Below are positions 1 to 7,149 of a DNA stretch of 26,023 nt, piece after piece. A program made the position numbers and the translations under genes. Where the stretch lies: positions 1-26,023 of the IMG/VR virus record IMGVR_UViG_3300044695_002934, one strand, 5' to 3'. Within the stretch, counting starts at the first letter, position 1. Each line of letters opens with the position of its first letter. This stretch comes from a virus. The notes under the pieces were generated by a model, which saw only the letters and a list, made by a program, of their open reading frames with translations, was not told the DNA's origin and made no database searches.

Positions 1-2706
1 ACCCTAGCACGCAAGGCTAGCGAATCGGCACGTTTGAAGGTGCTGCAACGCCAGCTTGAACGTGGCCAGGAGTTGCTAGAAAAGCATCTCAAGGAGCAGT
101 ATGGAACGGCGGTTGATAAATTGCTTGAACGCTATCAATCAAAGCGGGATTCAAGCGGGCGAATCTCCGGCAAGATTCTTTCCACAGCTACGGAACAGGT
201 GGACTATGCTGCCGAGTTCTTGGAGTTGAGCGAGTCTGAACAGGAGGAAAGGCAAGACGCTCTCGAAACCAGAATTGAAAAAGCAAAGGATGCCGAAGAT
301 GTTCAGGACGCACTTACAAAGCTAGGCATTGCTCGCTTGTTTGAAGTCTGGGATACAAAAGACTCTGCATCCCGCGAGTCTGCTTTCTTGTGGCTAAACG
401 AGACGATTGAGCAGGGCAAGCAAGGCAAAAAGCTGTTGGATGAAGAACGTAAAGCGTTTCTCGATGACATGCGCCAGAGTGGGCAAGCGTCAATTCTGCA
501 AGGTGACGAGTTGAATGCTGCCGTGGCTGACAATCTCACGAATCTGAACAAGAAGGTGATGCGTCGCGCCCTGCTGGGTATGCGTGGAGTTTTGTCAGAG
601 TCTCTGTGGACTACCCTCCAACGTCTTGAATTGATCTTTGGCGAAGACTCTAAAATCTTGGATTACTTTGCGGGCAAGATCATCAATGCGGCGAATCTTT
701 CAACCGACATCAAGCGTCTTGTGGAGTCTCAGAAAAAAGACGCGCTAACGGTTATTTTTAATTCTGACAGTAAGTTTCAACACGCTCGCGGCATCGCTGA
801 ATTGCAGAAGCTCAAAGACTCGGGAATTATGATTTCCAAAGTCACAAAAAAGGAAATTAAGCTAGACATAGACACGCTGACAAAGCTCGCTGACGGCACG
901 ATGGACGCGAAGACGGCAGGGCTTGAACAGGCCGAGGTTGACGCCGCGCTTGAAGAGTTTGCTGCTAACGCACGCAAGCGCACGGTGACAATTGAGAAAG
1001 TGACTAGCAAAGCCGCGCCAACGTCTCGCAGGATGTCGGAGACGCAAGGCATTCAGTGGTGGCTATGGTCGATGCAGGATGCGAGTCGCAAGCAAATGGA
1101 GCGCGATGGCTGGGACGCTGACAGTTTCGCACAGCTTGAAGAATTCCTTTCGCCAGAGGCTAAAGCGCTGGGACGGTGGATTTCTGGCAGCTATCAAGAT
1201 GCGGCTGGCATGATTGATCCGATTTATCGTAGGCTGTTTAATGCACCACTTCCGCGCATTAAGAACTATTCACCGATCTATAGGCGCAACATGAACGCGG
1301 GCGGAGAGGTGATGGACTTGGACAGTTCAGACATGAATAGCGGCTTAGCTGCTGGCTTTACAAAGTCCCGCGTGAATACGACGGCTTCACTTGTGGAGAG
1401 TGACGCGCTTGCCGTGTTCTTGGCTCACTGGGAAAACGTCTCTCATTGGGTGGCGCACGCTGAAATGATGCGGGATATGAAGGCTATCTTGTTGGATAAG
1501 GACACCGCCGTGGCAATCCGCCAGAAAAAGAGTGAGGGTTATCTGCAACGGCTGAAGCAAGACATCAGCACGATTGAAAAGAACGGCACGAACAGTGCAA
1601 ACGAGCTTGTGAATATGTCGCGTTTCTGGCGCTGGCTTATGCAGTATCGAGCTTATAAGGGATTAGCGTTTCGTATTTCGCCCATTATCAAACAGACTCC
1701 GGCGCTGCTGAATCCACTCTTGGCTGACGTGCCTGCCCACAATTACATGATGGGACTTTCTCGCGCATTTATTGAGCCGCAGGCATTTGCTAGTGAAGTT
1801 TCCGCAATGTGGAAATCTGACATCATCCGCCGTCGTATTGAGTCAGGTTTCTCCGCTGAATCTCGCGTTGCGATGCAGGGTTCAAGCATGACCGGATCTC
1901 AAGCCATTCTTGCTATGCAAGCAGGCATGATGCCGATGGGCATGGTTGATGGTGGGTGGACTGCCCTGGGCGCTGCTATTTCCTTTGATTATTATCGGCG
2001 CGGATACATGCGTGAAAACCCGCAGATGACGCCAGAAATTGCAAATGCCAAGGCCATCGCACGTGTTGAAAAGATGATTGCTACATCGGCGCAACCTTCC
2101 GATGTTTATGCCCGCGCTCTTTACGAGCGTTCTGGCAATCCGTTTATGCGTTCAATGTCAATGTTCGTGTCTGACCAACGCAAGGCTCTTGCGGTTGAAC
2201 TAATGGCAATTCGCAAGCTGGCAACGGGCAAATCTAAAAACAAATCGCTGGACGTTCAGCGGGCGTTTGTCGCTCACATTGTACAAGCCGCCGTTTCGCA
2301 GGTAATGGCTGGTGTGATTGCCTCGCTACTAGGTGACGATGAAGATCGTGATCGCGAGTGGAGCACAGATCAGTGGACGCTTGCGCTTACACTTGGCCCT
2401 GTAAATGGGCTATTTGTGCTTGGTCGATTGATTGACAAAGTAGGGCGTTCATTGCTTGGCCTTCGCGTATTTCCTTCCGATGACCTTGCAAGCAAAACGG
2501 CAAACGATCTTCTTCGTGGTGGTAAAAACATGGATGAGCTTTTTAGTCCTAATAATTCAGAAGAATTTATAGATGCGTTAGATTCGCTTTCTACCGCTGC
2601 CGCTGCTGGCGCATCTGCCGTCATTGGCCCCGCTGCTGGCGCTGTCGATGTCAGCGCTAACGTGCTACGCGAAGCTCGCAAAATTCAAGATCGGCTAAGT
2701 GAGTAA
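1..2706 (+). CDS. Large internal virion / polyvalent protein, C-terminal part (5'-partial)
   Basis: The frame is open to the left edge of the window, so this is the last 901 codons of a longer gene. A TTG at 34 is an internal codon, not a convincing start. The first third is highly charged and helix-forming (long K/E/Q-rich stretches, about 34-1000), and a Trp- and Met-rich middle follows. Near the C-terminus there are hydrophobic Ala/Gly-rich stretches (about 2270-2335, 2385-2440 and 2580-2650) that could contact a membrane. This composition and its size fit the very large proteins of podovirus-like phages that are ejected with the DNA or carry several activities (large polyvalent proteins). 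I recognise no catalytic motif in the visible part. The 3' end overlaps the last codons of the convergent minus-strand gene by 22 bases. The role is inferred from architecture only. Confidence 0.6.
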   Translation, partial: TLARKASESARLKVLQRQLERGQELLEKHLKEQYGTAVDKLLERYQSKRDSSGRISGKILSTATEQVDYAAEFLELSESEQEERQDALETRIEKAKDAEDVQDALTKLGIARLFEVWDTKDSASRESAFLWLNETIEQGKQGKKLLDEERKAFLDDMRQSGQASILQGDELNAAVADNLTNLNKKVMRRALLGMRGVLSESLWTTLQRLELIFGEDSKILDYFAGKIINAANLSTDIKRLVESQKKDALTVIFNSDSKFQHARGIAELQKLKDSGIMISKVTKKEIKLDIDTLTKLADGTMDAKTAGLEQAEVDAALEEFAANARKRTVTIEKVTSKAAPTSRRMSETQGIQWWLWSMQDASRKQMERDGWDADSFAQLEEFLSPEAKALGRWISGSYQDAAGMIDPIYRRLFNAPLPRIKNYSPIYRRNMNAGGEVMDLDSSDMNSGLAAGFTKSRVNTTASLVESDALAVFLAHWENVSHWVAHAEMMRDMKAILLDKDTAVAIRQKKSEGYLQRLKQDISTIEKNGTNSANELVNMSRFWRWLMQYRAYKGLAFRISPIIKQTPALLNPLLADVPAHNYMMGLSRAFIEPQAFASEVSAMWKSDIIRRRIESGFSAESRVAMQGSSMTGSQAILAMQAGMMPMGMVDGGWTALGAAISFDYYRRGYMRENPQMTPEIANAKAIARVEKMIATSAQPSDVYARALYERSGNPFMRSMSMFVSDQRKALAVELMAIRKLATGKSKNKSLDVQRAFVAHIVQAAVSQVMAGVIASLLGDDEDRDREWSTDQWTLALTLGPVNGLFVLGRLIDKVGRSLLGLRVFPSDDLASKTANDLLRGGKNMDELFSPNNSEEFIDALDSLSTAAAAGASAVIGPAAGAVDVSANVLREARKIQDRLSE

Positions 2707-2969
2707 ATATAAGCAAGCAGAGATTTAAGCCTGTCAATCTCGACGGCCTGTTGTTGGATGGTTTGCACGTCTCGGGCTGAGGCTGCAAGGTGTGCCTCGG
2801 TGCGTTCGCGGAGACGCTCTAAAAGCTCGGCGTTGGCTGTTAGTGCTGCGTCTCGCTCGCGTTCAAGTTTGCGTGCGAATTCAGAGGATACTGTGCAATA
2901 CGGAGGCATCATTCCGGGTTGAGGGAAAAATGTCATGCCATCAGTTTCAGGTGTTGGTGTGTCGCTCAT
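2685..2969 (-). CDS. Small phage accessory protein, MSDTP family (copy 1)
   Basis: A 94-residue protein starting MSDTPTPETDG, followed by a FARKLERERDAAL segment and a long heptad-like helix (ERLRERTEAHL...QAVEIDRL), which suggests a coiled coil. The start, a block near residue 30 (FAR[KQ]LERE) and the coiled-coil tail match the next gene upstream, so the two look like diverged tandem duplicates. Small proteins with an MSDTPRTDA-type N-terminus are common hypotheticals in phages and metagenomes, and no function is known to me. It is the last gene of the minus-strand operon. Its ATG overlaps the upstream stop (ATGA), which implies translational coupling. Its 3' end runs into the end of the large virion gene on the other strand. 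Confidence 0.75.
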   Translation of the reverse strand: MSDTPTPETDGMTFFPQPGMMPPYCTVSSEFARKLERERDAALTANAELLERLRERTEAHLAASARDVQTIQQQAVEIDRLKSLLAYIYSLSRS

Positions 2970-3226
2970 GGTGTGATAAATGGTTGGAGTTTGGCGAGGG
3001 CAAGATGAACAGATTCCATTGTTTCCGATTCTCGTTCAATGTCGCTGTTATTGCGTGTAAAGATTGGTTGAACGATCAGGTAATTTAAGCACTTGCGTAA
3101 AGCCAAGTCGGCATCGCGTATGGCTTTGGTTGACTCGTTGAGTTCGCGTTCAAGTTGTCGGGCAAAGTCAACACTAACTCGACCTGTGCCAAACTGCGCT
3201 GCGTCTGTTCTCGGTGTATCGCTCAT
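2966..3226 (-). CDS. Small phage accessory protein, MSDTPRTDA family (copy 2)
   Basis: The longest open frame starts at 3277, but the ATG at 3226 is chosen because it gives the family N-terminus MSDTPRTDAA and lies 14 bases after the upstream stop. This gives 86 residues. The FARQLERELNESTKAI helix parallels FARKLERERDAAL in the neighbouring downstream gene. Predicted to be mostly helical, with no signal peptide or membrane segment. Members of this family are widespread hypotheticals in tailed phages, and the function is unknown. It is part of a six-gene minus-strand run with coupled starts. Confidence 0.75.
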   Translation of the reverse strand: MSDTPRTDAAQFGTGRVSVDFARQLERELNESTKAIRDADLALRKCLNYLIVQPIFTRNNSDIERESETMESVHLALAKLQPFITP

Positions 3227-3240
3227 GTTGTAATAAAGAG

Positions 3241-3531
3241 TTAAGGTTTGGCAAAAGCTGCGTATTTTTCCATCCACTCGTTGGCTCGCGGCCAGCTCTC
3301 CTTGTGGTGGTCGAGTGCGTCCATATAGAGCACCTGAATGATCTTGTGCGCCTCCCTGATAGCCTCGCGCATCGCCTGAATCTCCTCAGCCGGATCAACC
3401 ATGCCAGCGCAGGCGTTGACGCATTCTGCTATTCGGCGCTCATCTCCAGCGCTGCCGTTGCGAGTTAGCGCAAGATCGAGGTCGTAGTAATAATTCCACG
3501 GCTCGCCGTAGTCGGGTGTTGGTGTGTTCAT
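3241..3531 (-). CDS. Phage hypothetical protein with RRIAECVNACAGM motif
   Basis: A 96-residue protein. The segment ERRIAECVNACAGMVDP near residues 32-48 resembles a signature often seen in small phage proteins (RRIVACVNACAG...), which I know only as conserved hypotheticals. The N-terminal part (YGEPWNYYYDLDLALT) is aromatic-rich, and the C-terminal part is helical and charged. The ATG overlaps the stop of the upstream gene (ATGA at 3528-3531). It ends in TAA, 14 bases before the MSDTPRTDA gene. No enzymatic motif is visible. The conserved motif makes it a real gene rather than a chance frame. Confidence 0.75.
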   Translation of the reverse strand: MNTPTPDYGEPWNYYYDLDLALTRNGSAGDERRIAECVNACAGMVDPAEEIQAMREAIREAHKIIQVLYMDALDHHKESWPRANEWMEKYAAFAKP

Positions 3532-3839
3532 GGCTGTTCTCCTTTCGAGAATTCATAGGCTTCTATGGCTGCAAAAGCAGTAGGCAAAGGGTTATTGCCT
3601 TCGTGCTTTTGCCATAAATATTCGTCACCGAACTGGAACCTTCGGTCTTCATATTCCTCTGTGATTAAAGCCAAGGCATTTGCCAGCTTATCTATCATCA
3701 CAGATTGAGCCTTAATAGTCGCCATGTCTTCCGCTCGCAGGTTGGCCAGTTTTAGAGCTAGCTCTGCAAGCTCGTCATACTCCTGTTGCTCGACTAATTG
3801 AATGAGTTGGTCACCGTCCATATAAGGGTAAGTTTTCAT
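3528..3839 (-). CDS. Small hypothetical protein, acidic, helical
   Basis: A 103-residue protein from ATG 3839 (MKTYPYMDG). A TTG nine bases earlier could also be used, but the ATG overlaps the upstream stop as ATGA, the rule in this operon. The sequence is acidic and helix-rich, with a central block LANLRAEDMATIKAQSVMID that looks like a short coiled coil. The remainder contains YEDRRFQFGDEYLW. I do not recognise the family. It belongs to the minus-strand accessory island and is probably co-transcribed from the promoter near 4572-4600. Confidence 0.65.
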   Translation of the reverse strand: MKTYPYMDGDQLIQLVEQQEYDELAELALKLANLRAEDMATIKAQSVMIDKLANALALITEEYEDRRFQFGDEYLWQKHEGNNPLPTAFAAIEAYEFSKGEQP

Positions 3840-4216
3840 TGTTTCCAAAGTTTGAGGGTTAGGCCGAGAGCTTCACAGCGTTGGGCTGCAATGGCGTTGG
3901 CAAGCTCATAGCCAGCAACCTCGAAAGTTGGTCGTCCGTCAGCTAAACAAGCTCGCAACCTATATTCATATTCAGCGAGCATAAGTGTTGTGGTGAGTTT
4001 CTGAGAGACAAAATCATGCACCGCGTTGAGGTCGTTGAAGTAGTCGGGAACTCCATAAACACCACATGAATTAGGATAGCATTTTCTCCATTCAGTTCTG
4101 GCAGCGTCGGTAAACACGCAACCCGCTGCCTTTGTTTGGCTTGGAATAAATGGGACATCTATAACCTGTAAACCGCCAGCCTCAGCCAGCTTGATTCGTT
4201 TTTCTTCTTGGGTCAT
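3836..4216 (-). CDS. Phage ABA-sandwich-domain-like protein
   Basis: A 126-residue protein. The middle block VPDYFNDLNAVHDF and the C-terminal block ANAIAAQRCEALGLTLKLWK match the layout of the small phage protein family with an ABA sandwich fold, where a PDYLNDLNAMHE-like segment is followed by an A(T)AxQRAEAFL...WK end. That family is common in tailed phages and its job is not known to me. The N-terminus (EEKRIKLAEAGG) is helical. Two Cys occur in CYPNSCG. Both ends share ATGA overlaps with neighbours, so it sits firmly in the operon. The family call rests on motif memory, not a search. Confidence 0.6.
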   Translation of the reverse strand: MTQEEKRIKLAEAGGLQVIDVPFIPSQTKAAGCVFTDAARTEWRKCYPNSCGVYGVPDYFNDLNAVHDFVSQKLTTTLMLAEYEYRLRACLADGRPTFEVAGYELANAIAAQRCEALGLTLKLWKQ

Positions 4217-4467
4217 TTCGCTGCCTCCCAGATGGTGAGGATTTGTTGGAGCTTATCAAAAGCGTTTCTTCCGTTAAAACTCAAGTCTCTGTTACTTGCG
4301 TAAGCATGGGTTGTTACTTGATTTTCTTGAATGAAGGCTATTATTTCCAGTCCTTCCACAGCCACCAGCAAACACTCCACCGTCGCTGCCGAGACGTTCA
4401 TATAAGTCTTCGACAGTTCAATGAACTCGCGGAGTTCGGCTTTTAGTTGTTCTAGTTGTGGTTTCAT
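4213..4467 (-). CDS. Small helical protein, first gene of the minus-strand operon
   Basis: The ATG at 4467 is chosen (84 residues, starting MKPQLEQLKAELREFIEL). The open frame extends further up, but that extension would run through the terminator hairpin and leader RNA. The element AATCATCAC lies immediately before this ATG, as it does before five other non-coupled starts in the window. The N-terminal 30 residues look like an amphipathic helix or coiled coil, and the rest has mixed composition. No family recognised. It is the first translated gene after the structured leader, so its expression should depend on read-through of that leader. Confidence 0.65.
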   Translation of the reverse strand: MKPQLEQLKAELREFIELSKTYMNVSAATVECLLVAVEGLEIIAFIQENQVTTHAYASNRDLSFNGRNAFDKLQQILTIWEAAK

Positions 4468-4484
4468 GTGATGATTTTTAAAAC

Positions 4485-4515
4485 AAAAAGGCCGACTCGG
4501 GCAAGGAGTCGGCCT
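4485..4515 (-). terminator. Intrinsic terminator/attenuator upstream of the minus operon
   Basis: Read on the minus strand, a perfect 10-bp stem AGGCCGACTC / GAGTCGGCCT (4515-4506 and 4498-4489) with a 7-nt loop (4505-4499) runs directly into TTTTTG then TTTT. This is a textbook rho-independent terminator on that strand; on the plus strand no T-run follows. It lies between the likely promoter (4600-4572) and the first gene (4467), so it would work as an attenuator or as the 3' end of a short RNA. Confidence 0.8.
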
Positions 4516-4566
4516 AATGCGGTTCATCGCAAGTTGGACGGTCACGCCTTGCCCGCGAGAACCATT
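4489..4566 (-). ncRNA. Candidate structured leader RNA or small RNA with kissing-loop potential
   Basis: On the minus strand, transcription predicted to begin near 4566 gives an RNA whose first element is a 9-bp stem GGTTCTCGC / GCGA-T-GAACC (4563-4555 with 4530-4521, one bulged T). Its loop contains GGGCAAGG (4554-4547). The next element is the terminator hairpin, whose loop plus closing base reads CCTTGCCC (4506-4499), an exact 8-nt complement. The two loops could kiss, or the upstream element could compete for the terminator. I recognise no known riboswitch or sRNA family here. This is seen in sequence; function is inferred. Confidence 0.6.
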
Positions 4567-4571
4567 TCCCT

Positions 4572-4600
4572 TTTATTGATCGGATTCCTCATCGCGTCAA
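4572..4600 (-). promoter_or_regulatory. Likely sigma70-type promoter for the minus operon
   Basis: On the minus strand, TTGACG (4600-4595) is followed after 17 bases by AATAAA (4577-4572), giving five and four matches to the -35 and -10 consensus. The expected start, near 4566, falls just before the first stem of the leader RNA. Its -35 lies 12 bases from the -35 of the divergent plus-strand promoter. Confidence 0.55.
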
Positions 4601-4612
4601 ATTAAAATGAGT

Positions 4613-4640
4613 TTGCTTTTAATCGCATTTGTGAGAATCT
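4613..4640 (+). promoter_or_regulatory. Phage promoter, TTGC / TGTGAGAATCT type
   Basis: TTGCTT, then 16 bases, then GAATCT, with TGTGA directly before the -10 (extended -10 form). The same 11-mer TGTGAGAATCT, with TTGC at identical spacing, occurs in front of the capsid gene at 25527-25554. The predicted start falls within a few bases of the ATG at 4647, so the transcript may be leaderless. Confidence 0.6.
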
Positions 4641-4646
4641 GGCGAC

Positions 4647-4913
4647 ATGACTCTGAACCGAGAACACTCCTCTAAGGGCTACAAGATTAACGCTGGCACC
4701 TCAACCGTGACTTATAATTTCTACGGGTTCACGGTTCTCGCCGAAACTGTAATCAATGCCATTACTGCTCCAACTGGCGGAGGCATTGAGAACAACGCAT
4801 ACGACGGCGACGAAGCTGGGCTTGCTGGTGTCACGTTGCCAGTTGGTTATTATCCAATTCGCGGAAGTGCGATTGATTTGACCTCCGGCACAGTCATCCT
4901 TTGGACTGAATAA
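4647..4913 (+). CDS. Small virion-associated protein (hypothetical)
   Basis: An 88-residue protein rich in Thr, Gly and aromatic residues, with alternating hydrophobic beta-strand-like stretches (GTSTVTYNFYGFTVLAE; SGTVILWTE). No signal peptide or transmembrane helix. It is the first gene after the promoter at 4613-4640 and heads the tail-fibre gene group, which suggests a small tail or capsid-decoration component. No SD is visible, and the ATG lies only six bases after the -10, so translation may be leaderless. I do not recognise a family. Confidence 0.7.
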   Translation: MTLNREHSSKGYKINAGTSTVTYNFYGFTVLAETVINAITAPTGGGIENNAYDGDEAGLAGVTLPVGYYPIRGSAIDLTSGTVILWTE

Positions 4914-4915
4914 AT

Positions 4916-5284
4916 ATGCCTGCCATGTGCCTCAGCTTAAATTTGCCATGCGGCGTAGCTGATCGCACGTTGACACCTCCGACCGTTGCGCCAGTGCTAA
5001 CGGTTACGGCAAATTTAGGTAGCACTACGGCACAACTTGAATGGACGGCTAGCGACAAAACAAGTTCTTCAAGCTTCATATATTATCTTTATAGAAATAC
5101 AGGATCAGCACCTACTCCTGGAGTTGATTCTCCGATTGTATCTCTTGCAGGGTCAACTTTGACTAGTGAAGATAATGTTATTTTAGCCGCAGGCGAAACT
5201 TACTATTACATCATCGTGCCTAGCAATTCCGCAGGTGATGGACCTGCTAGCAACGTTGTCGAAATAATATTACCAGGAATATGA
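4916..5284 (+). CDS. Fibronectin type III domain virion protein
   Basis: A 122-residue protein that is almost entirely one fibronectin type III-like beta-sandwich from about residue 20 on. The layout is PPTVAPVLTV, TTAQLEWTAS, a YYLYRNTG strand, then GETYYYIIVPSNSAGDGPASNVVEI, which carries the classic [Y-x-Y-x-V-x-A/S-x-N-x-A-G-x-G-x-x-S] end of FN3 repeats. Such domains decorate phage tails and capsids and are thought to bind cell-surface carbohydrate or matrix. The start is 2 bases after the preceding stop, and the stop overlaps the next start (ATGA). Confidence 0.8.
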   Translation: MPAMCLSLNLPCGVADRTLTPPTVAPVLTVTANLGSTTAQLEWTASDKTSSSSFIYYLYRNTGSAPTPGVDSPIVSLAGSTLTSEDNVILAAGETYYYIIVPSNSAGDGPASNVVEIILPGI

Positions 5285-5418
5285 ACGCGCTTTCTCTCGG
5301 ACTTCCTTTTGGCATTTCTCCACCGACTTCGGCTCCTCCGCCGGGCACGTGGATACTTGCAGCTAATACTTGGGATGATACCGGTGTTTGGCTAGACTCT
5401 GAAACTTGGAACGATTAA
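5281..5418 (+). CDS. Trp-rich 45-residue mini-protein in the tail group
   Basis: The frame starts with the ATG that overlaps the FN3 stop and encodes 45 residues. The second half has evenly spaced tryptophans: W24, W31, W37 and W43 within TWILAANTWDDTGVWL and ETWND. Similar short 'W..D/S...W.D' proteins sit beside tail-fibre genes in other phages, where they are hypothetical structural proteins. The Pro-rich linker (PPTSAPPPG) precedes the Trp-rich part. Support is the coupled start, the regular pattern and the exact fit between two genes (3 bases to the next ATG). Confidence 0.6.
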   Translation: MNALSLGLPFGISPPTSAPPPGTWILAANTWDDTGVWLDSETWND

Positions 5419-5421
5419 CAT

Positions 5422-7149
5422 ATGCCCATTGGAACTATAACAAACGGCGAATCGGGTTCATCCGTAAGGGCGAAACTCAACAGCGTTATTTCTGCAACTA
5501 ATTCGGCGCCTACGGACTACGCTACAGCCGCACAAGGCGCTACCGCTGACACGACGGCTAGCAGCCTTTCTTCGCACGTTGGAAACACAAGCAACCCGCA
5601 CAGCGTAACCAAGTCGCAAGTCGGCCTCGCTAACGTAACAAACGACGCGCAAACTATTGCGTCAATCGTGCCAAATACCGCGCCAAGTGCAGGCCAGGTC
5701 TTAGTTGGCAACGCAGGCGGCACAGCTTACGCGCCAGTCTCCGCTTCGGGAGACGCTACGCTTGCAAGCACTGGCGCTCTGACATTGGCAACGGTTAACA
5801 ACAATGTTGGCAGTTTCGGCAGTGCCACGGCAGCGCCAGCGGTTACGGTTAATGCCAAGGGACTTGTGACGGCAGTTTCAACGAATACGATCACGCCCGC
5901 AGTTGGCAGCATCACAGGACTGGGCACTGGCGTTGCTGCGGCGCTTGCTCAAAACGTCACTGGCAGCGGCAGCATCGTTCTTGGGACATCGCCAACGCTA
6001 ACAACTCCTGCATTAGGAACGCCATCCAGCGGCACACTAACAAGTTGCACTGGGCTTCCGTTGAGCACTGGCGTCACTGGGACTTTGCCAATCGCAAACG
6101 GCGGCACAGGTCAAACGGCGCAAACAGCGGCATTTGACGCGCTTGCTCCAACCACGACCAAAGGCGATTTGATTGTTCACAACGGCACTGACAACATCCG
6201 CGTGGCAGTTGGCGGCACTAATGGTCACGTTCTTACGGTGGACAGCGCAGAGGCCAGTGGCGTGAAATGGGCTGCTAGCGGTGGCGGTGGCGGCGGCGGT
6301 GGCGGCGGTGGAAGCGGCCCTGACGTTCAGCTTTACACAGCCGACGCAACTTGGACGAATCCAAGTCCATCCACAGCCAAGCGCGTTTTTGTGCGTCTTG
6401 TTGGAGGTGGCGGTGGCGGTGGTTCAGGGCGTAAAGGTTCTGTTGGTGTAACACGTTGCGGCGGCGGTGGTGCTGCCGCTGGCGCAGTTGTGGAGTTCTG
6501 GGCGCTCACAACTGAATTAGGTTCCACAGAGTCTGTTGTAGTTGGTGCAGGTGGCACAGGTGGCGCGGCTCAAACAGTATTCACCAACGGGAACCCAGGC
6601 GTAGCTGGGGGCAATACTAGCTTTGCCTCAACAATCGCCCGAGGAGGTGAAAATGGTTCTGGTGGTTCTTCGAGTAGTGGTGGCGCTGGCGGGACTCTTT
6701 CTGGCGGTTCATGTATTGGTTTGCTTGTCGTAAACACTGCTGCGGGCGGTGCTGCTGGTGCCAGTGGAGCAGCCGGAGCGTCATCGGCGGCAGTTAATTT
6801 CATGGCCCCAACCGGAGGCGGCGGCGGTGGCGGATTAAACGCATCAAACGTAAACACTACAGGCGGTGCTGGCGGTGCTATGGGTGCAGCGGCAGCAGTC
6901 ACATCGCTTGCAGGTGGCACAGCGGGAGCATCTGGCGGTGGCGCTGGCGGCAACGGAACAGCAGGCCGAGGTTCAGGCACTGGTGGTGGCGGCGGCGGCT
7001 CAAACAGTGCAGGAGCGGGTGGCGCAGGCGGTAATGGTGGTGGCTTTGGCGCAGGCGGCGGCGGTGGAGCGGCTGGAACCGATGGTATTGGAGACTCAGG
7101 CGCTGGTGGAAATGGCGCTCAAGGCTATGCTTTAGTTATCACTTTCTAA
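5422..7149 (+). CDS. Tail fibre protein with Gly-rich C-terminal domain
   Basis: A 575-residue protein. The N-terminal part (about 1-120) has a trimeric-fibre look, with the phage-fibre phrase [19 protein letters not shown] near residues 57-75. The middle (about 120-280) is a Ser/Thr/Gly/Ala repeat region, with phrases such as [13 protein letters not shown] typical of fibre shafts. After a run of 11 glycines (around residue 285) follows a domain starting [14 protein letters not shown] and ending in a poly-glycine body and a hydrophobic [10 protein letters not shown] tail. This is the arrangement of the glycine-rich adhesin tips of phage fibres. The role is receptor binding. The ATG lies 3 bases after the upstream stop, and no SD is visible. 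Confidence 0.85.

Follow-up and report, generated by a model that had tools for sequence, protein, structure and literature searches.

Covarying kissing loops in a mobile 5ʹ leader cassette of related phages, a putative transcription attenuator

On the minus strand of a 26-kb IMG/VR contig (26,023 nucleotides, called the window here), we found an RNA module of about 95 nt that is shared by a family of uncultured phages and in which two loops pair, that of a first stem-loop, P1, and that of a terminator-like hairpin, T. The module is best explained as the extreme 5ʹ terminus of a single phage transcript, and the pairing of its two kissing strands, k in P1 and kʹ in T, probably contributes to the choice of RNA polymerase between termination and read-through. 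The structure of the module is near certain. The portal protein of the window is 29-31% identical to that of Pelagibacter HTVC010P-type podophages; a glycine-rich, low-complexity, tail-fibre-like protein of 575 aa is encoded at 5422-7149 (+).

The original prediction had described a promoter, a bulged 9-bp stem, a 10-bp hairpin and an exact complement between the two loops, and all of these were recovered at the same minus-strand positions. The elements of the leader in the window are as follows.

4600-4595, minus strand: -35 hexamer TTGACG, read from the sequence
4577-4572, minus strand: -10-like hexamer AATAAA after a 17-nt spacer, read from the sequence
4563-4521, minus strand: first stem-loop P1, GGTTCTCGC (4563-4555) with GCGATGAACC (4530-4521), 9 bp with one bulge
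4554-4547, minus strand: GGGCAAGG, the stretch complementary to the terminator loop, from the sequence
4554-4548, minus strand: kissing strand k, GGGCAAG, with the complement running on to 4547, from the sequence and covariation
4536-4548, minus strand: conserved box GGCGTGACCGTCC (family consensus GGNGUGAUCCGNCC), from (near-)invariant columns of alignment A1
between 4521 and 4515, minus strand: P1-T linker GCATT, from the sequence
4515-4489, minus strand: terminator-like hairpin T, 10 bp, AGGCCGACTC (4515-4506) with GAGTCGGCCT (4498-4489), loop CTTGCCC, from the terminator scan
4505-4499, minus strand: T loop CTTGCCC, the 7-nt kissing partner kʹ, from the sequence and covariation
4481-4489, minus strand: U-tract TTTTTGTTT, a U-rich tail directly 3ʹ of T
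4213-4467, minus strand: first small gene behind the leader, 84 aa, with its ATG at 4467-4465

In the window, k and kʹ are separated by 42 nt of the same strand, and CUUGCCC in the T loop exactly complements GGGCAAG in the P1 loop. Hairpin T was ranked first by a terminator scan of positions 3000-6000 and is directly followed on its 3ʹ side by TTTTTGTTTT; a GC-rich hairpin with a U-tract is thus placed between the promoter and the first gene, as in leaders of the attenuator type. The first gene starts 22 nt after T, as originally predicted, with its ATG at 4467. Action of the terminator on the plus strand was rejected, as there is no U-tract in that direction. The predicted TTGACG/AATAAA promoter was found, and its -35 hexamer is kept in two diverged relatives (L018 and L019), but it matches the consensus at only 9 of 12 positions and its -10 hexamer lacks the final T, which is why a simple promoter scan does not list it. 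We presume that this promoter is used, with a predicted transcript start at about 4563-4567; the promoter scan found no consensus promoter between T and the ATG. The 181-nt leader folds better than its shuffled versions (z = -3.5). In the unconstrained minimum-energy fold of the window leader the GGG of GGGCAAGG is buried in an extended P1, indicating that the open kissing loop competes with P1 extension. The conserved box is, by its constancy, a candidate site for binding of a factor or ligand. We also noticed the motif TCATCAC immediately before several gene starts without a clear Shine-Dalgarno sequence (window 10054, 12908, 20510 and 23120 on the plus strand, 4474 on the minus strand), where it is a possible initiation signal.

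Pattern scans of related phage contigs yielded about 23 distinct members with 14 distinct k/kʹ pairs. Since the first scans fixed AGGCCGAC/GTCGGCC, the constancy of the T stem in them is partly due to selection. The k/kʹ letters were fixed only in the exact-terminator search, and two other scans fixed one edge base. Where a scan left both T and the kissing letters (apart from one edge base) free, all full-length modules recovered still had complementary pairs, and where it was anchored on the box or the downstream RNA it brought up T stems and loops not met before, with the pairing still kept. As the sequences are related, member counts are not independent events, and it is safer to rely on how many distinct pairs there are. 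With a covariance model, one full-length module per record was found in 23 of 25 records, the weaker second hits being the antisense of the same hairpin. A pattern scan of genome contigs gave no convincing member among the matches listed. BLAST gave no match in cultured phages for either the leader region or the downstream RNA, and none in plasmids. A host search through 388 genomes of the phylum sampled, centred on an Opitutae genome, gave no strong match; lacking a positive control, this is a weak test.

Each of the 14 distinct pairs comprises 6-8 nt and is fully complementary. The strand k reads GGGCAAG, GUGGAGC, GUUGCAG, AUUGCAG, CUGAGAAA, UGUGCGAA, GUGCAAG, GUGAUGG, GUGCUAG, CUAGCGG, UGUGCGA, CUGGUAG, GGACUAG or GUAGAAG, and every time the complement is present in the T loop; the first different but complementary pair that we met was GUGGAGC/GCUCCAC, in L017. 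All 12 distinct loops tested pair with their own partner over 6-8 nt, with a pairing sum of 85, compared to at most 73 in 100,000 permutations. In 21 manually registered sequences, k and kʹ were paired in 147/147 cells, with two-sided changes at all seven positions; the register of this count was set by hand, and the permutation and MAFFT tests are independent of it. In an unfitted MAFFT alignment the k/kʹ covariation score was 0.521, versus 0.175 +/- 0.034 for shuffled alignments (reached by 0 of 500), and at most 0.233 when the register was slid. Duplex energies averaged -9.2 kcal/mol for own partners versus -2.2 for crossed ones. The T-stem covariation score was likewise reached in 0 of 500 shuffles, and differing T-stem sequences occur in L290, L291, L296, L302 and L303. 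P1 was paired in 140/147 cells with compensatory changes at three of seven positions (21 relatives, manual alignment). RNAalifold missed P1 on the plain alignment, owing to misplacement of the 3ʹ arm of P1 by MAFFT; the P1 count therefore comes from sequences registered by hand, a procedure biased towards the structure.

As judged from this covariation, k pairs with kʹ and the T hairpin is paired, and the k-kʹ pairing is real because about 14 loop sequences each keep an exact complement. The original prediction had proposed that the two loops kiss and had named a lack of covariation as grounds against it; on inspection, relatives change both loops complementarily. The complement spans the 7-8-nt T loop and hardly enters the 9-11-bp stem. 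Ending approximately at the loop edges, it indicates loop-loop pairing rather than an antiterminator that replaces the stem, so that in the final fold the kiss and T can coexist, and competition between them would be confined to the folding process. In the members dissected the P1-T linker is 5-6 nt. A GC-rich stem of 9-11 bp followed by a U-rich tail is present in every member compared, although in many of them the U-tract is interrupted (CUCUUUG), making a weaker terminator. The tail is kept also where the 5ʹ flank of the members differs; pairing of the flank sequence CAAAUA with the tail CUCUUUG was rejected, because the tail stays when the flank changes.

The exact terminator of the window was found in four other contigs (L009-L012), in which the leader is nearly identical and the first gene is different. 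Among these five window-clade phages, the stem-loop and terminator had no variable column in 75, compared to 37 in 290 upstream, and the promoter region (-98 to -50) had two in 48. The sequence past the ATG is largely unalignable, and the gene or the gene order behind the leader differs. With a constant leader in front of changing sequence, the leader belongs to the promoter and not to a gene. In the window the minus-strand region 2685-4467 is an array of small genes opposite to the surrounding ones; L009-L012 have such genes exchanged and in another order behind the same leader. Two diverged relatives, L018 and L019, have TTGACG at the same place, just upstream of an 88-aa gene (minus strand), and no module; their small genes resemble those of the window by eye. 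Since they keep the promoter and similar small genes without the module, the module is a separable insert. Two gene-bound explanations were rejected. Gene-specific feedback is contradicted by homologues of the first gene without the leader directly upstream, and a leader peptide by the frame ORF 4213-4545, which in the window is open through the leader into the first gene, is not conserved and is shifted in other clade members by length differences just before the ATG.

In most members the module is followed by a covarying noncoding RNA, so that the window clade has the minority arrangement. Clustering of the downstream sequences gave about eight mutually non-homologous noncoding stretches, besides the changing protein genes of the window clade. 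The largest group, with 12 members, is a noncoding RNA with a 3ʹ domain of about 215 nt, in which 18 of 45 predicted pairs have compensatory changes.

L142:5901-6116 (plus strand), L103:822-1033 (plus strand), L289:6031-6244 (minus strand) and others: 3ʹ domain of the noncoding RNA, behind the module

This RNA had no match in Rfam (L103 and L142 regions at permissive E-values, 14 loci at the gathering score), and it is apparently undescribed. In L152 a tRNA-Met (CAT) gene (4979-5052, plus strand) is embedded in one of its stems, and other members, e.g. L138 and L295, seem to carry other inserts at the same arms. One member, L296, combines a window-like module with the noncoding RNA, which suggests either loss of the RNA from the window clade and placement of small genes behind the module, or the reverse. 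Comparison of the contigs shows that the module moves as a unit between the promoter and changing downstream sequences. What had not been predicted is the mobility of this 5ʹ cassette and its usual place in front of noncoding RNAs instead of a single fixed gene.

Of the two roles first considered, an attenuator and a terminated small RNA, the former is now the better supported by inference and the latter remains its rival. We regard it as somewhat better than an even chance that the module is a cis-acting attenuator working, by analogy, like the guanidine-IV riboswitch; we infer termination, attenuation, its sign and any factor involved. P1 would fold first. As the 5ʹ arm and the loop of T emerge, k could seize kʹ before the 3ʹ arm of T is made, and the kissing complex would slow or reshape the terminator hairpin, letting the polymerase pass; without the kiss, T would form and transcription would stop at about 4485. 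The balance may be set by a factor or ligand at the box, or by the speed of the polymerase. Alternatively, the sign could be opposite, with the kiss strengthening T. In the window the module would gate a set of small genes, and in most relatives a structured noncoding RNA. The lowest-energy secondary structure of the window, which buries part of k in P1, speaks against an attenuator, and so do the interrupted U-tracts of many members.

A less likely explanation is a structural 5ʹ domain, in which T is not a working terminator and the module caps and stabilises the downstream noncoding RNA or joins its fold, serving as an mRNA 5ʹ cap in the window clade. Such a domain would equally show base-pair covariation. 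The covarying noncoding RNA behind most members, the frequent interruption of the U-tract and the use of kissing loops by large phage RNAs such as ROOL and GOLLD (PMC12286853) are consistent with it. However, every member has retained the U-rich tail after T, and a module that fronts unrelated downstream sequences as well as protein genes is not part of one fold.

We consider it unlikely that the module is an autonomous short RNA, with most transcripts ending at T and a product of about 80 nt acting in trans via its loops, the loop sequence giving specificity between phages. The strong terminator of the window in the terminator scan would fit, as would the near-identical contigs L163 and L303, whose loops differ with the pairing kept: they are identical at 98/98 positions upstream and 245/249 downstream and at only 82/97 in the module, where the two contigs have a different k, kʹ and T stem, all of them still paired. 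Cassette recombination could, however, account for this pair. With both partners on one RNA and a linker of 5-6 nt, pairing within the molecule is favoured, and genes starting 22 nt after T mean that read-through must occur. In L136 and L290 the flanks are 98-99% identical and the module 91%, with compensated changes, and L295 has an L017-type module within L138-type surroundings. Such loop diversification reflects either cassette exchange or selection for distinct loops. It is a rather improbable, speculative extension that the module serves phage self-recognition: the mobile 5ʹ cassette would carry a rapidly diversifying kissing code, its short RNA would act in trans on phages of the same kind (superinfection or copy sensing), and it would also gate the new class of phage noncoding RNA. 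An ordinary terminator with a chance complement is hardly credible: a single 7-nt match in a short leader is not very rare alone, but the k/kʹ covariation (permutation, cell count and MAFFT-alignment score) excludes it.

The original statement that no named family has this arrangement holds against Rfam 15, in which the module had no match at the gathering score and the window at E <= 10 gave only unrelated chance hits; literature searches brought up no such element either. The put antitermination sites of phage HK022 likewise form two stem-loops in the leader RNA shortly behind a promoter; put is not itself directly followed by a kissing terminator, and its likeness to the module was compared via Rfam only. 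In ColE1 RNAI/RNAII, the loops have seven nucleotides and are fully complementary, and their sequence diverges with the pairing kept, as in the module. The earlier comparison with this type does not hold further, since RNAI/RNAII pair as two antisense RNAs from opposite strands, whereas k and kʹ are on the same strand of one transcript. ROOL and GOLLD are phage-encoded structured noncoding RNAs with kissing loops and tRNAs nearby (PMC12286853). The tRNA-Met within the downstream RNA of L152 resembles them; this RNA differs in having no Rfam match and in being shorter (about 400-500 nt), and in the window clade the module occurs without such an RNA.

The module is thus a structured RNA family outside Rfam 15, supported by covariation, in which the terminator loop itself would be the regulatory contact, and it marks the start of an apparently undescribed phage noncoding RNA. 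Its natural, mutually distinct loop pairs offer a test of kissing-loop control over intrinsic termination, and, with both loops varying between near-identical contigs, the question of trans-specificity can be put to a direct test. By analogy, its closest relative in design would be the guanidine-IV (mepA) riboswitch and not RNAI/RNAII. This riboswitch also has two hairpins in succession; the kissing loop that joins them impedes full formation of the terminator stem and favours read-through (PMC11611296). No Rfam covariance-model match of the guanidine-IV family to the window element was found, and the module differs in its varying kissing letters (14 versions), its box GGNGUGAUCCGNCC and its phage context. 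The geometry is the same, and in the module the kiss between the first hairpin and the terminator hairpin is backed by covariation.
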